DNA of 64,000 bases from Branchiostoma floridae. Lineage: Eukaryota > Chordata > Leptocardii > Amphioxiformes > Branchiostomatidae. The position numbers were made by a program, and so were the translations under genes. Of this stretch, positions 7,572-39,499 are shown piece after piece (position 1 is the stretch's first letter; each line of letters starts with the position of its first letter). The notes under the pieces are model-generated. The model was not told where the DNA came from. It saw only the letters and a list, made by a program, of their open reading frames with translations, and searched no databases. The stretch lies in contig NC_049983.1 in assembly GCF_000003815.2 (NCBI RefSeq), forward strand, positions 16,938,907 through 17,002,906, written 5' to 3'.

Positions 7572-8912
7572 ATTGAGATCCATGCACAGTGGAGAGTGTA
7601 TGTATTGTTGTTGATGTCTACAATGTACCAAAGAGGTTATGTTGATGTAAAGCCTCAAAGTTGACTTGAATGCAAAACAAAATACACTGAATATGCGTAA
7701 TAGCCAACATATCACAATACATGATTGGGGATGTCAAAATTATCTAGAGCATTATCAAGACAGAATGACCGATCAGAATGCCTGGCATAGAAATTCGGCA
7801 AGCTGATTTGTTGAATCTTGTAATGGGATCTATGCATGGCAACAGCCAGTCCTTGTTGACAATGTGTTTCAACGTTTGTTAGCCATTGAGTCCTATATGA
7901 GCCGTAGTCATTTTCAAGGGAAATAACCCTGTAACAATGTAAGATTTCTTTTTTTGCGAGAAATTGGGAACAATAGCAAAATTGCATTCTGGCTGAATTA
8001 GTCTTAAGTTGGTTGTGTATGGTTTAAGGTTGAGTTTCAAATGTTTGTGTATCAACTTTTGGGAATATAGGTCTACCAAAATAAAAACATGACTACAAGA
8101 CTTTTGAAGCGTTTGTCATCTTGTACACATGTATGAAACACACTAGATCTTTATATCGTACTTGAATTTATTCTGTGATCTTTAAAGATAACAAGCGTGC
8201 CCCCATTTGTTGTTCCTCTGCATTTTTTTTGCTCGTCATTGGAAAGTCGAGGATAGTAAACAACATTTGATTACGACACTGTAAGCTTCATTTGTCTAAT
8301 GTTTGTTACCATTTTAAATCCCCAGTTTCATAAAGGATTTAGACTCCTAGTTCACAATGAAGATAGATAATCAATTCAGCATTAAGGATAGGTTGATACT
8401 GACTAGATAGACGTAGCGGGGGACAAGAAGCTGGCCTACTAACTGTGAGGTTCTTGGTATCATGTCAATTCAACTTGTACACGGCGGCCCGGTTGTGTGT
8501 GCCTGTTGTTTCAGCACCAAGGACAGGACGGTCGGTCTCGATCCAATACCATTCAGCGCCACTGGCAGAAACATGACTATGTATATCTTTTTGTTGTTCT
8601 TGGTTATCTGGTGGACCGACTACTCTCTTGACTGCCAGGGGCTGAATTGCGAGGAGGTTACAATATGCAGGGCTAAATTGCAAGGGTCTGGAGCAAGCTG
8701 CATCTGAGTGTGGGTTACAAGTCTTACAATAGTACTGTGTTGAGGCATTCAGTGGTAGCGCGGAAAACCTTGCACACTTTATATGCTTGATGTAGCTGTT
8801 CCTATTCCCTATAAAATCGTTACAATGTCACATGAACTTTCATTCTAATGTTCCCATTCTTATCAGTACACGAAGTGACCAATAATACAGTAGTCCAGCC
8901 TGTTTTGCTTGT

Positions 8913-17286: not shown

Positions 17287-20200
17287 TCACACTGCACTGT
17301 GGATGACCTCCCCTTTCTTCACCACATACTTGATGAGATGGTCGTGCCCTGCAAGCTGATAGATCAGGTGCTCCCATCTGGAAGGGTAGAGGTCAAAAGA
17401 CAAAGGTTATACAGGAAAATGTATTCATCCAGAACAAAGTATGATGTGTATACAATTGTGTATTGATGATAAAATTATAAAAAAGAATCCTTGCTTATTG
17501 AAAATCTTCTTAGGCTTAAAGGGGAATTTAAAGTTAAACAAATTAATTTGCGACCTCTAAAAAGAGCCCAATGTTACAGTAGATTTTGAGGCAAAAACAT
17601 GGCGAATTTGGAATTTTGCAACCAAAGGAAAATGTCTGACTCAAGTTGTTGACAGTGCAATGCTGGCTTTAAGAGATATTTGTCTCTTCCTCCTTTCCCT
17701 TGAGTACTCCAGTCTCACCTTGGTGCATCAATGATGACCAGGTCTCCGACTTTCCCCACCTCGAGTGACCCGTGAGTCTCCGCCCTCCCCAGAGATGCCG
17801 CTGCATTTATGGTGGCAGCCGCTAGGGCCTCGTTCATGGACATGCGGAAGTTCACGCAGGCCAGGTGCATGGTCATGGGCTGAAATACAATCATAGTTCT
17901 TCTTCATCACTTTCTTAACATTTAAGTATGTTCATTTTGTAATTTGAGGAAGAGGTGGGCACTTTGAATGCGAAAAAATTGAAATCTGTGAGTATTTTCT
18001 TGCAATTGAAGAGTATGATACAACGTATGATAAGACAAACAAATATGCCGTCATGTACAGGGACACATGGCCATTCAAATACCTGGTACAATTATTCATA
18101 ACTTTATTATGACCTGTAATTCAATCACAATACATGTACTGCAAATACAGTGCATTCAACGTAGACTTCTACTAAGCTTAACTGTTTTTGTTCTTCTAAA
18201 GTTTAAAAAGGAATTTATGATATAATTTATGGCTGCTTTGCATGCATGCTACACATGCATACACACCATTGACAGACAGAAGGCGTTGGGATTGAAGTCA
18301 CTTCCCAGGGCCACCACCACACCACTGTCAATCATTTTTCTGGCTGGGGGAGGAGTCAACCTGGAGAAACATTCATGTGACATTGTTTGTACTTCAGAAA
18401 ATGTTTTGATCTAAATTTGATTCATTGTCTTGTGCCAAATGACAACAAAGCATTACTTTTTGCCTGAATTCTTTTTATAATTGTGGCTCAGTGGCCTTGT
18501 GATTAGGATTTAATTTATTAAACTCAAGATTCAGAGGTACTGAGTTTGAATCCCTGATGTTTCCCCTTTGGACATTAGACACTTTATACCAATTTTCGCA
18601 CTTGTATACAATGTAGGAACCACACTTTGAGCATGTTTAGGAACTCACCACACTTATTGAAAAGAGTAGGGGTCCATCCTGGGGTGAGTGGTTCAAGTAA
18701 ATCTGTCCCAAAATGCAACTTGTACTGTTTAGTACAAACCTGCTGGGTTATACCAAGAGGCGGTTCACTCTGTTATCAATACAAACACTTGAGGTCAGCA
18801 ACAGACATCCACATGTAATCCACTAAGGTACACACAGGTGCTATCCAACAATTAGTTATGAGACACTTGATTGTATTGACAAGTGCATACCTGAGTATGT
18901 AAGCAGTTGTAGGTAGGATGACAGCCACAGAGCCAGAGTCTGCCATGGCTGTCATGCTGATAGTTTTGACACTGTGCATACCTGAGTATGTAAGCAGTTG
19001 TAGGTAAGATGACAGCCACAGAGCCAGAGTCTGCCATGGCCTTGATGCCCGCATCGCTGATCTCCTCCAGATGACTGATGGCTCGGGCTTTCAGCTCTGC
19101 ACCCAACTACAACAGGACAAATACTGACTTGAAGGTGACACATTTTGCTATACACAAACCTTATCATGAAAGCCATGTAGGCATTGATTACATGTAGGCA
19201 TTATTACTGTTTCATTGACTTTGTTGTGATGTACAGTCTGATTTGAATCCAGGAAAATGACATGATACCTCAGCAGACTTCATGGGATGCAGCTCATCAC
19301 CGTGGAAGTTGATGGCCAGACCAGCGTCTACACCAGCCTGCAGGATTCTCCTGGAGTCAAGTACATGTACACAGTCATGTAGATATAAGTCTTTACAATC
19401 ATGTGGATTCAATTTAGAAATAAGTTAAAGTCCTTCCAACACTAAATCTCTGTTTTTGTAGCCGTGGGCCATACAGCTTTGTACAATTATCACAATAGCA
19501 GGGGGCTAGTCCACTGGTAGTGGTGTGTGTTTAACTTTCCAAAATGCTGAGTGCTAGTACAGAAAGCAGTATGCACCACCTAAAAAATCTCTGGTATGGG
19601 TCAGCCGGCTATTGAACTCATGATCTACAGAGTGCAAGGTGAACACTCTACTCACTTGGCCATTGTATCCAAGTCTAGCAGTACAAGACAAAGGCAAGTC
19701 TACATCTTAAGTCTGGTTAGTCTTTTCACAAAGATACAAATGTTGTTTTTTGGATGTATAAGCAGTTTGGTGGGACGTTATTGGGTACTAGTTATATTAC
19801 CCAAATTATAGATCAAGCAAAACCAACCAACCAACCAACAAACAGTTGCATTGCAAGTTACCTGGTAGATTCCACATCAAAGACACCTTTCTCACAGAAC
19901 ACGTCAATGTTGTCCACCTCCAGGTCACCTGACTTCATCAGCTCTTGTAACCGTGGCAACTGGACATTGATGACATCCTCAGTAGCCTGCTCCATGGTGC
20001 TGCCCCTAAAAAAACAATCATTTACATGTATTACAAAAATGAAATGTTTCAAGAGACAATACCTGGTGTGCTCTACAGAAGGTATTGACTTTTGCACTCT
20101 AGTGTGCTTTATACAAGGTACTGACCTTGGTACTGAGTGAGCTCCACAGAAGGTACTGACCTTGGTACTGAATGTGCTCCACAGAAGGTACTGACCTTGG

Positions 20201-23200
20201 TACTGAGTGTGCTCCACAGAAGGTACTGACCTTGGTACTGAGTGTGCTCCACAGAAGATACTGACCTTGGTACTGAATGTGCTCCAAAAAAGGTACTGAC
20301 CTTGGTACTGAATGTGCTCCATAGAAGGTACTAACCTTGGTACTGAGTGTGCTCCACAGAAGATACTGACCTTGGTACTGAATGTGCTCCACAGGAGATA
20401 CTGACCTTGGTACTGAGTGAGCTCCACAGAAGGTACTGACCTTGGTACTGAATGTGCTCCACAGAAGGTACTGACCTTGGTACTGAGTGTGCTCCACAGA
20501 AGGTACTGACCTTGGTACTGAGTGTGCTCCACAGAAGGTACTGACCTTGGTACTGAGTGTGCTCCACAGAAGGTGCTGGATATTTCAATAGGTAGCTCCC
20601 TCTTGGCCCTCTGTATTACCCGCAACATCTTCATTTCTGTCTCTACTTCCAGCCCATATCTGGAAGAAATACAGATGAGAAATACTTATATTTACATTTC
20701 AAAGGAAGCTAAGAGAGAGAAAAACAGACCTATTTGCTACAGTAACAAGGTACCCACATACCACCAGAGATTATATTGGCTATCACTGCAATAATGTATC
20801 ATATAAATGGTCAAAAGAAATCTGGCTAGCAAGCTCACTGCATCTGAGGAACTTAAACCACAGCCCCTGTGGTGCTGGAACTGTAAGATGATTTGTTACC
20901 GGGATGAAGCATTCAGTAACCAGGGCTCGAAATACTTTTTTCTGCATACCTGCACCGGTGCAGGTAACATTGAAAATTACCTGCACCAGAAAAATTTTAC
21001 CTGCACCACTCTAAATTTAGGAAGTATGAATCATACTAAAATTGTTCAGGAACCATTGCTATTTTTTTTCTTTTATATTGTATAGATGGTACCAGCCAAT
21101 GCAGCTAAGAACAATCCTCATGCACCTACATCATAGGATCCTAGGGCATTTATGTATAAAACCCAGTACATGGACCAGTGCAGGTTAGGTGCAGGTAGAC
21201 ACCAGAAATACCTGCACAGCTCCAATTTTACCTGCACCAACCTGCATATGCAAGTGGTATTTCGAGCCCTGAGTAACTGTATCCTTGTCTTACCCACTCT
21301 TACACTCCACCAGTGTGGTCCCTGCCCTGACCATACGCAGCAGCCTGTCCCTGAACAGTGCGTACAGCTCGTCCTCCGAGGCACTGCGAGTGTGCTCTAC
21401 GGTGAAGTTGATCCCTCCACCGGCTTTGTGGACCTCCATATACGTGGCACCTGCCAACTGGGTCCAAGAATCAGAAATTAAAGAGTGAACAGAAAGGGCT
21501 TTAGAAAATATCCTAGTCCAGGCAAGAAAAGACCTTTATTCATCACTCTTTGTGACATTTCAACAACAAATAAAATATAACCATATCACGTCGACCAATG
21601 ATGATGATGATGATGATGATGTTATGTACCTTCATGGCAAACTCATGGACCCTGTCACCTGCCCAGACAGGATGGGTGTGGCCGTCAATCAGACCTGGAG
21701 TTGATACACAAGCAAAGTAAGCCCCACCTATCGCATTACAATTTAGTTAATCCTTATAAGATGGTTTGCACGGTGGGATCCTCTGGATACTCTGTTGTGA
21801 CTACACATGTATTTAATAGGCAACCTGGTGTTCTACTCTGCATTTACAAACAACTTGTCAATAATGTTTAACACTGCATTTAGGATAGCAAAGAACATGT
21901 AACGTTATAATAACAGCAACCAAATATGCTTCATGAAGAATATATAGACAATGCTTAACATTGAATTAGGGCAGGCTGGCTACAATAACCATTAATCGAA
22001 ATGTAGTGTAGGAAGGGTACAATTCTGCGTTACAAGCATATGTTACAAGTCCTAGAAAAGTACATTCTAAGTCGTACAACGGCAGTTTCCACGTCCCCGC
22101 TTGCGGACGGGCGCGAGTGTTCGACGTCGAATAGCGACGTTTGCGCCCGTTCGCAGGTGGGGTATTCGAACGCGTTTGGAACGCGTTCGCACAATCAAAT
22201 AAAAGTGAGTTGAGTTCAGGATTCAGAAGTGTCTGGACGCGTCGTCTTTTGTCTCTTGTCTTTCTGTGCTTTTGGCGTCTAAAACCCTCTGCAACAACCT
22301 GGTACTTCAGGGGAACATCGATACCATCAACGTTTTCCTTACATTTGGCGTTGTCGGCAGGATGTTGCACGTCGTTTCCACCTCGACGAGGGTTCCTTGA
22401 GAGAAAAAGCGCCGGCAGCCGAGAGACCATGGTAGAGAATGGCCAGGAGAATGTTGGAGGTCAGGAAGAGCAGGGGAGCCCACAGACAGGAGTTCGGAGC
22501 GGGTCGGGCAAAGTTGGGAGAGCCAAGAGCGAGGAGGCCGCGGGATCGATGCTGCTGAGCCGAAGAATAGGCGGAAAGTCGGCAAAGACAGGGACAGCAG
22601 GGCCAAGTTCAATGGGCATGGGCCGGAAGTGTGCTGGAAGTGTGGAAGCGAGAAAGAATGCCACGTACACTCTGGATGACCGTTTATGTCCAAGTTTGAG
22701 GTCGTCATCATCATGTAAGTTAGGTAATACACGGGTGATGTGATTTCCGGGGAAACCCAGACTTCGGGGGTTGAACTTCGGTTCTTCAGGGGGTTACATT
22801 GCCTGTGATAGATAGGAACTTTGCTAGAAATATCATTGTGTATTGACCTATTGTCGTATTGGTTTTTCAGAAGACCTTTACGGGTTGTAATGTATACCTA
22901 GTTAATCTTTTGAATGTAATGCTCTACATTTTGGTCAGAAATGTGAAACAGGGTGCAAATGTTATGGACAGTTGTTAATTTATGACACAAAGACAGAAGA
23001 GTACGGGTAGTGCACAGAGGCGTTCAGGTCTTTAGTCAAAGGAGTTCGTAGGTTTAGGACGGTCGGTTGTGTGTACGTGCGTGTTCTGTTCTTTCTCCAT
23101 GGCTGATCCCTGCATGGGTCACACCTGGACACGAGAGTGTTGGCGGCAAGGTGTTCATGGCACCCGTTAACCATGTCCAATCAGGCGGGCCGACCCGGAC

Positions 23201-25236
23201 ACGTTCCACATCGGGACACCTGACGCAGCGTAGCGAGTCGCCGTGAAAGCTTCCCCAGGAAGGCGGTGATCGGGGCTGCAACAGCAGGAGGATTCGGGGA
23301 GGACGTCTGTGGCCGTGCGACAAAGGGAAGGAGGGAGGACAACACGACACGGTAACGGAGAGCGGCGCTCCAGGATCAAGGAGGCCGTGGCGAAACAGAA
23401 AGCGACACCCGAGAAAGGAGAGGTCGTGAGAGAGAGGTGCTGAGAATAGCAGAGGAACAGCGTGGATTTGTGATGAGACGGGAGGACCAGAGAAGACCTG
23501 AACTATGGACACTTGAACAATCCCATGAACTGACTTAATTAGATATTTGCCATATGAGGAGACCCTTTCAATTAGCAAATTGTAACTTATGATAAACTAT
23601 CTGTTTTTATATTGTCAAACTGATGAGGGTTAATTTACGTATGGCGTTTCACTCGCCGAGGACGGCGAGTATTTAAACTGGGGGTGAGTGTAGGAAGGGT
23701 ACAATTCTGCGTTACAAGCATATGTTACAAGTCCTAGAAAAGTACATTCTAAGTCGTACAACGGCAGTTTCCACGTCCCCGCTTGCGGACGGGCGCGAGT
23801 GTTCGACGTCGAATAGCGACGTTTGCGCCCGTTCGCAGGTGGGGTATTCGAACGCGTTTGGAACGCGTTCGCACAATCAAATAAAAGTGAGTTGAGTTCA
23901 GGATTCAGAAGTGTCTGGACGCGTCGTCTTTTGTCTCTTGTCTTTCTGTGCTTTGGGCGTCTAAAACCCTCTGCAACAACCTGGTACTTCAGGGGAACAT
24001 CGATACCATCAACGTTTTCCTTACAGTAGCACAGCAAAATTACTGTACTGATATGAGGGACAAACTGTAATCAATGTAATGTGACGTACCTGGTAATACA
24101 CTCATCCCAGCTGCATCAATGACTCTGTCAAACTTGGTACTTCCATACTTCTCCTGTATGTCTGCATCATGGCCGACTGCTTCTATTAGTCCATTGCTGT
24201 GGGATACACACACATTTCAACATTTACTGTTACAAAATCAGGAATGAAAAGTCGTTCATGGCAAAGGACTATGTAAAATTGTATTGAAAGTTGATATAGG
24301 ACTCTAACTAGCGACCATCACTGTAGTGGCTGATTTTCTTTGAGAATCACGTCTAGTCAAGAACATTTTGAAATGGGACTGAGAGGAACAGAATCGTGTC
24401 CCAAATGACGTAGTCCTACTCAATTTAATAATAGAGAGTACAGTGTAGCCTGTGTAACACAAACTCTGCTGTCCTGGGCTGTAACTGGCGCCTCCCTATA
24501 GAAGCCAACCAGATGTTGGGCGGGCTGCTATAAGGGAGATTTAATCAGGCTAGGTACAATGAATGTGAAACAATTTTTGAGAGGGGTCTATCTTGAATCT
24601 CAACGGTTAATGACCTTTTCTTGACCCCTCTCCCTTAATTATACTGTAACTCATTGAAACACTGCCTGACTACCGCTGAGTACTTATTAATGGAAGTGTC
24701 AAGACAATTACAGTGACACCTGTGTGTGACCACCTGGCCAAATCATGTGACCACTTCTTGGTGGTCTCTTTGAGAATTTTTCCAATTGACACAACCAGTT
24801 ATCTTTTATGGTCACATGAAGTGAGCACCTGTCCATATAGACAACAAAGATTTCATTAGTCCCGACTGGCCTGAGTGGTCTTCTTGGGCAGTTCTGACTG
24901 TAAATCTCAGCAAGGATATGATTATGATTAATAATCTCAGCATGGCCAACATTTGATTTGAGCTGTGTGAAAAATTAACACTGCCCAGCAAACGCCTAGA
25001 TAGTAGATAGTAATATACCCAGCAATAGACGAAAACACGTTTCAATAACAAACAAACAAAAAAAACAGACAAACAAGTAAAACAAACCTTCCGACGACCA
25101 GGCTGACCCCGTTGTCGCCATCCTGCTCCAGCGAGGCGAGTGACTTCATGTCCTCCCCGCGCAGCGCTCTCTCCTCCGCCCGACACACCAGCACCACCTG
25201 CCGGGCTCCACGGACCAGCAACTTCCCTCCCGACAT
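17287..25236 (-). CDS. AMDHD1: Imidazolonepropionase, 11 exons, 431 aa
   Basis: Hydrolyses 4-imidazolone-5-propanoate to N-formimino-L-glutamate, step 3 of histidine degradation, as a metal-dependent amidohydrolase. Exons (minus): 25236-25088, 24196-24090, 21694-21630, 21457-21294, 20659-20546, 20005-19862, 19350-19269, 19106-18982, 18360-18267, 17879-17719, 17377-17287. They sum to 1296 nt with consistent phases. Human AMDHD1 is about the same length. Motifs: metal-binding GHTHPVWAGDR, GGGINFTVEHTR, GTTLVECKSGYGLEVETEMK, FCGAHSVP (substrate histidine by analogy with bacterial HutI), VDNIDVFCEKGVFD, NFHGDELHPM, ILPTTAYILR, VALGSDFNPNAFC and ETHGSLEVGKVGDL. ATG 25236 starts MSGGKLLVRGARQVVLV, as in the family. 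Two exon-intron junctions (exons 5 and 8) are tandemly duplicated, and a 2-kb LTR element occupies intron 2. Confidence 0.95.
18483..18610 (+). mobile_element. tRNA-like SINE fragment
   Basis: TGTGGCTCAGTGGCCTTGTG resembles an A box and ACTGAGTTTGAATCCCTGA a B box about 50 nt downstream, followed by a non-tRNA body. It lies in an AMDHD1 intron. Confidence 0.5.
18891..18956 (-). other. Duplicated 3' end of AMDHD1 exon 8 (potential 66-nt cassette)
   Basis: A 91-bp direct duplication (units starting 18885 and 18976 on the plus strand) repeats the 3' part of exon 8 with its donor CTCAG|GTATGC. The copy has its own possible acceptor (CTATCAG, 18958-18957). Between them lie 66 nt that fit phase 2-2 and read MTAMADSGSVAVILPTTAY with no stop. 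It could be an in-frame cassette exon or silent debris. Confidence 0.6.
19445..19680 (-). mobile_element. tRNA-derived SINE, same family as 3230-3475
   Basis: On the minus strand it reads GGCCAAGTGAGTAGAGTG, then a B-box-like TGAGTTCAATAGCCGG, then the shared body with ACCACTACCAGTGGACTAGC. It lies in an AMDHD1 intron. Confidence 0.65.
20055..20578 (-). repeat. 35-bp minisatellite of AMDHD1 exon 5 / splice-donor units
   Basis: Thirteen copies of CCTTGGTACT(G) occur at exact 35-bp spacing (about 20126 to 20546, plus strand), with about two more diverged units at 20055-20125. Read on the minus strand, each unit is the last 29 nt of AMDHD1 exon 5 (codons for FCGAHSVP) plus six intron bases, so every unit has a CCAAG|GTCAGT donor. 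Because 35 is not a multiple of 3, the array passes through all three frames. All three are open, giving a 35-residue protein period. The intron defined by the first donor (20545-20006) is 540 nt with no in-frame stop. Confidence 0.95.
20921..21271. mobile_element. hAT-like nonautonomous element (CAGGGCTCGAAATAC ends)
   Basis: The ends CAGGGCTCGAAATAC and GTATTTCGAGCCCTG are perfect inverted repeats, flanked on both sides by AGTAAC (20915-20920 and 21272-21277). The interior repeats CCTGCACC / GGTGCAGG in several orientations. CAGGG ends suggest hAT, though the visible site duplication is 6 bp rather than 8. It lies in AMDHD1 intron 4. Confidence 0.75.
21599..21621. repeat. (ATG)n microsatellite
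   Basis: Seven or so ATG/GAT triplets lie just inside the intron after AMDHD1 exon 3, next to the donor at 21629. Confidence 0.85.
22007..24025 (+). mobile_element. Nonautonomous LTR retrotransposon, 2019 bp, two near-identical LTRs
   Basis: The LTRs at 22007-22343 and 23689-24025 are both 337 bp, begin TGTAGGAAGGG and end TTCCTTACA. I see one mismatch (CTTTTGGCG versus CTTTGGGCG). A 4-bp site duplication GTAG flanks the element (22003-22006 and 24026-24029). A primer-binding-type TTTGGCGTTGTCGGCAGGAT follows the left LTR, and a purine tract (GGGGGTGAG) precedes the right LTR. The 1345-bp interior has no recognisable protease, reverse transcriptase or integrase, only a gag-like scrap (EVCWKCGSEKECH). 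It lies in AMDHD1 intron 2, opposite to the gene, 64 bp from exon 2's donor. It is probably a recent insertion mobilised by an autonomous partner. Confidence 0.9.
24446..24552. mobile_element. Short TIR element, TAGCCTGTGTAACAC family, copy 2
   Basis: TAGCCTGTGTAACACAAACT ... GGGAGATTTAATCAGGCTA aligns with 4476-4584. It lies in AMDHD1 intron 1. Confidence 0.65.
24709..24902. mobile_element. TIR element with CAGTGACACCTG / CAGTTCTGACTG ends
   Basis: TA-CAGTGACACCTGTGTGTGACCACC on the left pairs imperfectly with the complement of GGTCTTCTTGGGCAGTTCTGACTG-TA on the right. Internal TGGTGGTC / GACCACC repeats. It is a degraded short element in AMDHD1 intron 1. Confidence 0.45.

Positions 25237-25972: not shown

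Positions 25973-39499
<13,527 letters not shown>

Follow-up and report, generated by a model that had tools for sequence, protein, structure and literature searches.

A 35-bp minisatellite repeating the splice donor of AMDHD1 intron 5: a probable further amphioxus mirage

Mirages are amphioxus minisatellites that lie across exon/intron boundaries, and the excerpts of the literature available to us describe them in Adh, troponin C, globins, and PGBD5. In these excerpts they are reported or thought to be spliced normally, and both the data for Adh3 and the RT-PCR of globins are described as pointing to regular splicing. The BflGb6 haplotypes differ in having 6 versus 3 units, and the PGBD5 mirage copies differ between two sequence versions (2 vs. 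7, and 3 vs. 6). The available part of the globin paper allows for alternative transcripts arising from the repeated AG/GT signals. AMDHD1 is not among the mirage genes named in these excerpts.

Here, we describe an array that probably adds a member to the known amphioxus mirages. It lies in AMDHD1, within the window (the whole stretch of DNA analysed, 64,000 nucleotides), and consists of minisatellite-like tandem units, each of which crosses an exon/intron boundary and repeats a splice signal.

The AMDHD1 gene and its 35-bp array

Judging from its sequence, the host gene appears to be the lancelet gene for a histidine-breakdown enzyme (AMDHD1/HutI). The gene model was built by eye and checked by computation; the array was delimited using TRF and by setting the units in register.

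17287..25236, minus strand: AMDHD1 gene (imidazolonepropionase), 11 exons, 431 aa
25236-25088, minus strand: exon 1
24196-24090, minus strand: exon 2
21694-21630, minus strand: exon 3
21457-21294, minus strand: exon 4
20659-20546, minus strand: exon 5, whose last 29 nt form the exon portion of unit 0
20545..20006, minus strand: intron 5, 540 nt, donor AAG/GTCAGT at 20545, acceptor TTTTTTTAG ending at 20006
20066..20578, minus strand: 35-bp minisatellite (mirage)
20005-19862, minus strand: exon 6
19350-19269, minus strand: exon 7
19106-18982, minus strand: exon 8
18360-18267, minus strand: exon 9
17879-17719, minus strand: exon 10
17377-17287, minus strand: exon 11

The protein scores 468 bits against the hutI model TIGR01224 (cut-off 298) over residues 50-426 of 431, and it matches PDB HutI entries. 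A second AMDHD1 copy was sought with the C-terminal 154 residues, which gave 5 matches in the same genome, all of them in this gene.

TRF reports a period of 35, 14.6 copies, 91% matches, 0% indels, and a score of 835 for 20066-20578. Unit 0 (20574-20540) joins 29 nt from the end of exon 5 (20574-20546) to GTCAGT, and units 0-12 follow one another at exact 35-bp spacing on the minus strand (20574-20120), with 0-3 substitutions apiece in units 1-12 (15 in total). Beyond unit 12, two decayed units reach to about 20066. TRF and the register of the units thus bear out the original prediction of about 15 units, thirteen of them exactly spaced. It also placed a complete CCAAG/GTCAGT donor in each unit; CAAG/GTCAGT is present in 12 of the 13 exactly spaced units, whereas unit 6 has CAAG/GTTAGT and two units are decayed. 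Within the repeated protein segment, STFCGAHSVP, the histidine is presumably substrate-binding, as in HutI. In an alignment with the solved imidazolonepropionase 2bb0, the segment pairs with STFMGAHAIP.

The array does not reach the acceptor of intron 5, which is preceded by an ordinary pyrimidine tract. As had been predicted, the intron (entered in phase 2) has a length divisible by three and zero in-frame stops, and its retention would add 180 residues, giving 611 aa rather than 431 by translation. The prediction that donors at other units are in frame only every third unit was likewise confirmed, for donors 3, 6, 9, and 12; the other 8 of the 12 extra donors (1, 2, 4, 5, 7, 8, 10, and 11) break the frame and lead to a stop 541 or 582 nt ahead of the last junction. 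Five of the ten AMDHD1 introns, intron 5 included, have a length divisible by three, and intron 5 alone is stop-free. The 35-bp unit is stop-free in every frame; so are 3/10 AMDHD1 exon-end units (exon 5's included) and 17% of random 35-mers from the window.

Two further boundary-spanning arrays lie nearby.

18868..19040, minus strand: second AMDHD1 mirage, 91-bp unit, 1.9 copies (TRF and gene model)
33112..33539, plus strand: acceptor-side mirage of the neighbouring DUF4200 coiled-coil gene (TRF, exon edges by eye)

The 91-bp unit combines 59 nt from the end of exon 8 with the donor GTATGCAC; with its donors at 18981 and 18890 separated by 91 nt, splicing at the second would break the frame and lead to a stop. 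In the DUF4200 gene, units of about 97/106 bp carry TCCATCCCA(G/A)-(G)A(A/G)CC..., the true exon is 33470-33621, and the copies are more decayed the farther upstream they lie. No surplus of arrays at splice sites was detected: in the two genes for which exon edges are given, 3 of 4 arrays overlap such sites against a random mean of 1.7 (P 0.18).

Origin of the array

The array is very probably a neutral minisatellite that caught a splice donor, the first donor being kept in use. It would have begun when sequence spanning the junction of exon 5 and intron 5 was duplicated in tandem, slippage or unequal exchange would have lengthened it, and the first donor (20545) would most likely have stayed the spliceosome's choice. 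If the first donor is used, later copies leave with the intron, and the array can be tolerated as neutral sequence. Several observations support this account. Splicing at donor 0 yields a complete 431-aa imidazolonepropionase whose regional length is within 2 residues of that of two solved HutI proteins. Turnover is visible among the units of the one version of the locus analysed, in that units 2-4 equal units 10-12 at an 8-unit lag (3 of 5 pairs at that lag are identical), and the decayed units are the two lying farthest from exon 5. We infer that donor 20545 is the one used and that copy number varies.

Other observations point the other way. Only 1 of the 15 substitutions falls in positions 19-35, the donor half of the unit (binomial P 0.0007 by counts; 0.04 for the 8 distinct changes). 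Constraint on this half was considered but is not robust, as an equally clean 17-bp stretch arises in 38% of random draws. The joint odds of an open, in-frame intron 5, calculated after the fact, are roughly 0.06-0.7%; their terms are a stop-free unit (0.17-0.3), openness despite substitutions (0.28), a length divisible by three (0.33), and an open last 114 nt (0.04 from readings of the ends of the other introns, 1/27 of them open, up to 0.25 from pieces slid along those introns). The open frame is probably an accident, a low-odds coincidence.

That unlikely coincidence of an open frame and a length of 3n is what an isoform generator would account for, with retention or every third donor adding 35, 70, 105, 140, or 180 residues after GAHSVP; in-frame donors 3, 9, and 12 also share all ten bases with donor 0, donor 6 having GTTAGT. 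We nevertheless regard it as highly improbable: the insert would adjoin the GAHSVP segment, which aligns with solved HutI enzymes, most extra donors give premature stops, and the gain or loss of one unit puts the intron out of frame (by arithmetic). Codon-level constraint on the retained-intron frame, sought through synonymous substitutions, was not detected (6/15 synonymous vs. 4.5 expected, P 0.28; with 15 changes, power is low). Just as implausible is an intermediate or product of intron gain, in which an exon segment containing AGGT is duplicated. That model (Rogers, as cited in the available part of PMC3087553) starts from tandem AG/GT copies, and in AMDHD1 the duplicated segment does span an exon/intron boundary and contain splice signals; however, no new intron is apparent in AMDHD1, and donor and acceptor do not both come from the duplicated segment, the acceptor at 20006 being outside the array. 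A donor decoy array, in which competing U1 sites cut splicing efficiency or time expression and out-of-frame choices lead to nonsense-mediated decay, is improbable too. It could draw on twelve extra donors, 11 of them identical to the first, and on the 8 whose stops fall far upstream of the last junction. Donor-word pairs also exceed the same patterns read backwards, which served as the control for word counts, across 513,431,437 bases in 431 contigs of the same genome: 2,732 versus 8 for CAGGTRAGT pairs 25-55 nt apart, and, for close pairs, 87 versus 30 for AAGGTRAGT and 94 versus 20 for AAGGTCAGT (23 places, 10 pairs from AMDHD1). Against this, the AAGGT surpluses are modest, with counts equal to those of the GT-less control word CAGGARAGT (106 vs. 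65), real donors by themselves raise single-word frequencies, published mirages are, in the excerpts available, reported or thought to splice regularly, and no donor is singled out by RNA structure. Special structure in the array RNA was looked for by folding, which gave z scores of +3.8 (20 shuffles) and +1.8, that is, less structure than in shuffles. Of the three options originally put forward, neutral slippage kept open by chance is best supported (turnover, no codon constraint, documented mirages); the synonymous-change and folding tests lent nothing to the donor decoy or the isoform generator.

The final alternative, a core-seeded minisatellite, is unlikely. The exon end carries TCAGTACCAAGGTCAG, one mismatch from TCAGYACCNNGGACAG, proposed as a genome-wide seeding word, and the donor would have been caught inside the core. 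In the same genome TCAGYACCNNGGACAG has 11,222 copies against 2 for the pattern backwards, an excess that is unexplained. The array finds 20 matches besides itself (E 1.3e-23 to 6.7e-5; 9 candidates scored) and, read backwards, none. The seven matches examined represent 5 distinct places, all 5 of them arrays of 32-40 bp units, with the exact core in 4 and a diverged form in the fifth (L003). These minisatellites and AMDHD1 are alike in unit length (32-45 vs. 35 bp) and at 15/16 core positions; they differ in that the AMDHD1 core has GGTCAG, not GGACAG, and that its unit is coding sequence plus donor. However, the GGTCAG variant is rare (221 vs. 4 backwards, 12 of the 221 from AMDHD1), and no long array other than the AMDHD1 run appears among the 100 variant places listed. 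The codons for SVP and the donor itself partly force the match, the core is better conserved than the remainder of the unit in just one (L007) of 4 arrays, and 80 kb of genome taken at random held zero arrays with the core and one isolated copy. It is doubtful that the thousands of two-part cores TCAGYACC-NN-GGACAG, from which the AMDHD1 exon end is one base away, actively seed tandem arrays. Literature on TCAGYACCNNGGACAG-type minisatellites in amphioxus was searched for, and none was found by title or abstract among the matches listed.

Donor words and a core resembling the REST site

Donor sites in general were also considered as minisatellite hot spots, and rejected: the large surplus is special to CAGGTRAGT, and it is modest for AAGGTRAGT, AAGGTCAGT, and CAGGARAGT. 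By eye, the first 100 CAGGTRAGT places (of 2,732) fall into 13 spots; a single 51-bp family accounts for 4 of these, and ACCTG stands between the donors in 6 of the remaining 9. The CAGGTRAGT surplus is unexplained and counts against quick dismissal of a donor link; because of it, and because two arrays behind the count sit in dynein exon ends, such arrays may have a donor-linked cause. Also rejected, for AMDHD1, was an inverted repeat (its unit is bounded by ACCTT...AAGGT) that hides the donor or guides duplication, as the array folds less than shuffles. By eye, ACCTT lies between donors at 0/30 AAGGTRAGT places and 4/23 AAGGTCAGT places (AMDHD1 included).

The two-part core resembles the vertebrate REST site (RE1), and it recurs inside minisatellites, several with unrelated flanks. 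The canonical RE1 is given in the available part of PMC3529185 as TTCAGCACCACGGACAGCGCC, with a free 2-bp spacer; AMDHD1 CTCAGTACCAAGGTCAGTACC differs from it at positions 1, 6, 14, 18, and 19 outside the spacer. In the same genome, TTCAGCACCNNGGACAGNGCC, a pattern of 21 bases, occurs 93 times against 0 backwards. That the 3' GCC is commoner than chance could not be demonstrated. When 150 of 5,205 candidates in this genome were scored against human REST zinc fingers, the top match had 46% over 137 aa and looks like a generic C2H2 array.

Significance and comparison with known mirages

Whatever its origin, the splicing machinery faces a row of near-identical signals in intron 5. Thirteen donors, 12 of them identical, amount to a natural experiment on 5' splice site choice: donors of equal strength differ by position alone, and wrong choices can be read as a 35-nt ladder. 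If arrays are seeded by a shared core, this would bear on how minisatellites are born, and mirages of the core type would be by-products of sequence-directed minisatellite birth.

Under the preferred reading, a neutral minisatellite that caught a donor, AMDHD1 is a further case of gene boundaries swept into minisatellites in amphioxus-type genomes. As in the mirages of Adh3, BflGb6, BflGb9, troponin C, and PGBD5, so far as the available excerpts describe them, its tandem units cross a boundary and repeat a splice signal, and, as in amphioxus mirages there, its units show turnover from which those at the edges are excluded. Unlike the known mirages, it has a 35-bp unit in 13 exact copies and a whole intron that is open in frame.

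A repeated donor in an intact gene

Within the AMDHD1 and DUF4200 genes, which stand head to head (window 17287-37541), three splice boundaries carry tandem copies.

25236-17287, minus strand: AMDHD1 gene, 11 exons with GT-AG introns, read by eye
20066-20578, minus strand: AMDHD1 array over the exon 5/intron 5 boundary (TRF: period 35, 14.6 copies, no indels)
18868-19040, minus strand: AMDHD1 exon 8 donor duplication, 91 bp in two copies, the second donor frame-shifting
33112-33539, plus strand: acceptor-side tandem repeat of the DUF4200 coiled-coil gene

The AMDHD1 model gives an intact product of 431 aa that is, judging by homology, an imidazolonepropionase (468 bits against hutI TIGR01224; E down to 8e-79 against solved HutI proteins), and its repeated segment STFCGAHSVP aligns with STFMGAHAIP in 2bb0. 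A search of the Branchiostoma floridae genome with the C-terminal 154 residues gave five matches, all to this gene: four exons and the duplicated copy of the exon 8 end. The DUF4200 neighbour may be CCDC38/CFAP100-like; AMDHD1 and CCDC38 are neighbours in human, which suggests that the linkage is old.

TRF and in-register reading agree with the original prediction of a 35-bp period and about 15 units, thirteen exactly spaced (20574 to 20120, then two decayed units), built from the last 29 nt of exon 5 plus GTCAGT, as in unit 0, the exon end. That every unit has a complete GTCAGT donor holds for 12 of the 13 exactly spaced units (CAAG/GTCAGT) and fails for unit 6 (CAAG/GTTAGT). Units 1, 2, and 10 are identical to unit 0 and the remainder differ by 1-3 bases, with 15 substitutions in total. 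Units 10-12 repeat units 2-4, a lag of eight units at which three of five pairs are identical, and the decayed units are the two most distant from the exon; this pattern fits turnover through slippage or unequal exchange, the units close to the exon being the ones renewed.

Arrays of period at least 25 in the two genes overlap a splice site in three of four cases, against a random mean of 1.7 (P 0.18), so in this small sample of two genes and four arrays, with DUF4200 exon edges read by eye and one of them doubtful, boundary overlap is within what array and exon density predicts.

The open intron and the choice of donor

Intron 5 is entered in phase 2, and its translation bears out the earlier claim of 540 nt, divisible by 3 and without an in-frame stop; retention is predicted to yield 611 aa, compared with 431 aa when spliced. 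The expectation that only every third unit stays in frame was also correct: of twelve extra donors, 3, 6, 9, and 12 are predicted in frame, and with the other eight, translation would end at a stop codon 541 or 582 nt upstream of the last junction. Stops so far ahead of the last junction usually invite nonsense-mediated decay.

Is this openness mere chance? The unit is stop-free in all three frames, as are three of the ten AMDHD1 exon-end units (this one counted) and 17% of 35-mers drawn at random from the window, and the array stays open in 28% of random placements of its 15 substitutions. For the final 114 nt, the odds of being open are 1 in 27 by frame readings at the ends of the nine other introns and 25% by sliding pieces of those introns. 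The joint odds of an open, in-frame intron, including a length factor of one third, are about 0.06-0.7%, a low value that speaks against chance alone; yet it was calculated for a feature picked for being open. In an independent test, codon constraint in the retention frame was not detected (6 of 15 substitutions synonymous versus 4.5 expected, P 0.28, 15 changes giving small power), and each gain or loss of one 35-bp copy breaks the frame. Exon 5 plus intron 5 is predicted to fold with less structure than its dinucleotide-shuffled versions (z +3.8 over 20 of them); a piece of some two and a half units gave z +1.8, 195 of 200 shuffled versions folding at least as well, and nothing in either fold set the first donor apart. 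We consider the array most likely neutral; its main value lies in the natural experiment that it offers on donor choice.

Related words and arrays in the genome

A link between the array and a core word of genome-wide minisatellites, TCAGYACCNNGGACAG, is a lead, not a result. The array has 20 genomic matches besides itself (E 1.3e-23 to 6.7e-5; 9 candidates scored); reversed, it has none, with zero candidates at the first search stage. Seven matching loci were fetched, representing five distinct places, all arrays of 32-40 bp units, with the exact core in four and a diverged form in the fifth (L003). Across the 513 Mb genome the core occurs 11,222 times versus 2 for the same pattern read backwards, as scattered singles and 32-45 bp minisatellites (e.g., window 8511-8526; loci L002, L005, L006, L007, and L010); the first 100 places listed form 39 spots, 11 with at least two copies. 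The AMDHD1 unit differs from the core by a single mismatch, which falls on the T of the GT donor. Against the link, the resulting GGTCAG form is rare (221 versus 4 backwards, 12 from AMDHD1), the match is partly forced by codons and donor, in three of four arrays the core is conserved no better than the remainder of the unit, and a random 80-kb sample of the genome (8 of the 60 regions drawn) held one isolated copy and no core-bearing array.

Loci L002, L005, and L006 share flanking sequence and look related; L007, L010, L028, and L033 are flanked otherwise. The core is similar to RE1, the REST site; the 21-base RE1 form TTCAGCACCNNGGACAGNGCC is found 93 times versus 0 backwards. At L028 (1488-2521; C1 about 585-586 kb) there is an array of about 7 copies of 96-116 bp that is perhaps a tandem exon array: in each unit an acceptor-like TTCAG is joined by what could be a short exon and by the donor CG/GTAAG.

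Donor words were also counted as pairs 25-55 nt apart, with the reversed pattern as control. The counts were 94 versus 20 for AAGGTCAGT (23 places; 10 pairs from AMDHD1), 87 versus 30 for AAGGTRAGT (30 places), 106 versus 65 for CAGGARAGT, which is without GT, and 2,732 versus 8 for CAGGTRAGT (e.g., C1:9479866-9481441 and C1:20224899-20226505). Thus AAGGT donor words are modestly in surplus over the reversed pattern and CAGGTRAGT hugely, a surplus specific to that word. The first 100 CAGGTRAGT pairs listed belong partly to a 51-bp repeat family (both orientations) and partly to arrays with CAGGT...ACCTG.

Some arrays behind these pairs are mirages, in which a minisatellite repeats the splice signal. 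Two loci contain pieces of dynein motor genes, scoring over cut-off in Pfam (AAA_6 33 bits, AAA_7 31 bits), with these donor and acceptor-like arrays:

L053, 1474-2166
L059, 1498-1999 and 2487-3052

Their donor arrays are of 36 and 43 bp. L059 also has a 47-bp x12 array farther downstream, in which an acceptor-like GCGCAG stands ahead of a GDSGVGKS reading, a P-loop motif. A long AAG/GTCAGT array at G000:C18:6082321-6083088 has a 33-bp unit, so all alternative donors would stay in frame; if it marks a real exon end, it is a better candidate than AMDHD1 for testing donor choice.

Comparison with known mirages

Among the titles and abstracts of the literature matches listed, there was no genome-wide mirage survey and no AMDHD1 case. 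The name was given to amphioxus tandem repeats over exon/intron boundaries, reported for Adh3 of two species and the globin genes BflGb6 and BflGb9, at the 5' or 3' boundary and with units of 10 to 160 bp (PMC3087553). Regular splicing is suggested there by Adh3 data and globin RT-PCR, although the repeated AG/GT signals could, according to the authors, serve as cryptic sites; BflGb6 haplotypes have 6 versus 3 units, and an intron gain model is proposed (PMC3087553). PGBD5 splice sites carry 60- and 108-bp repeats whose copy numbers differ between two sequence versions; in one gene model a portion of these repeats is read as a 57-residue exon, which the authors omit, and troponin C is a similar case (PMC3902484). 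The AMDHD1 array belongs to this known kind, the amphioxus mirage.
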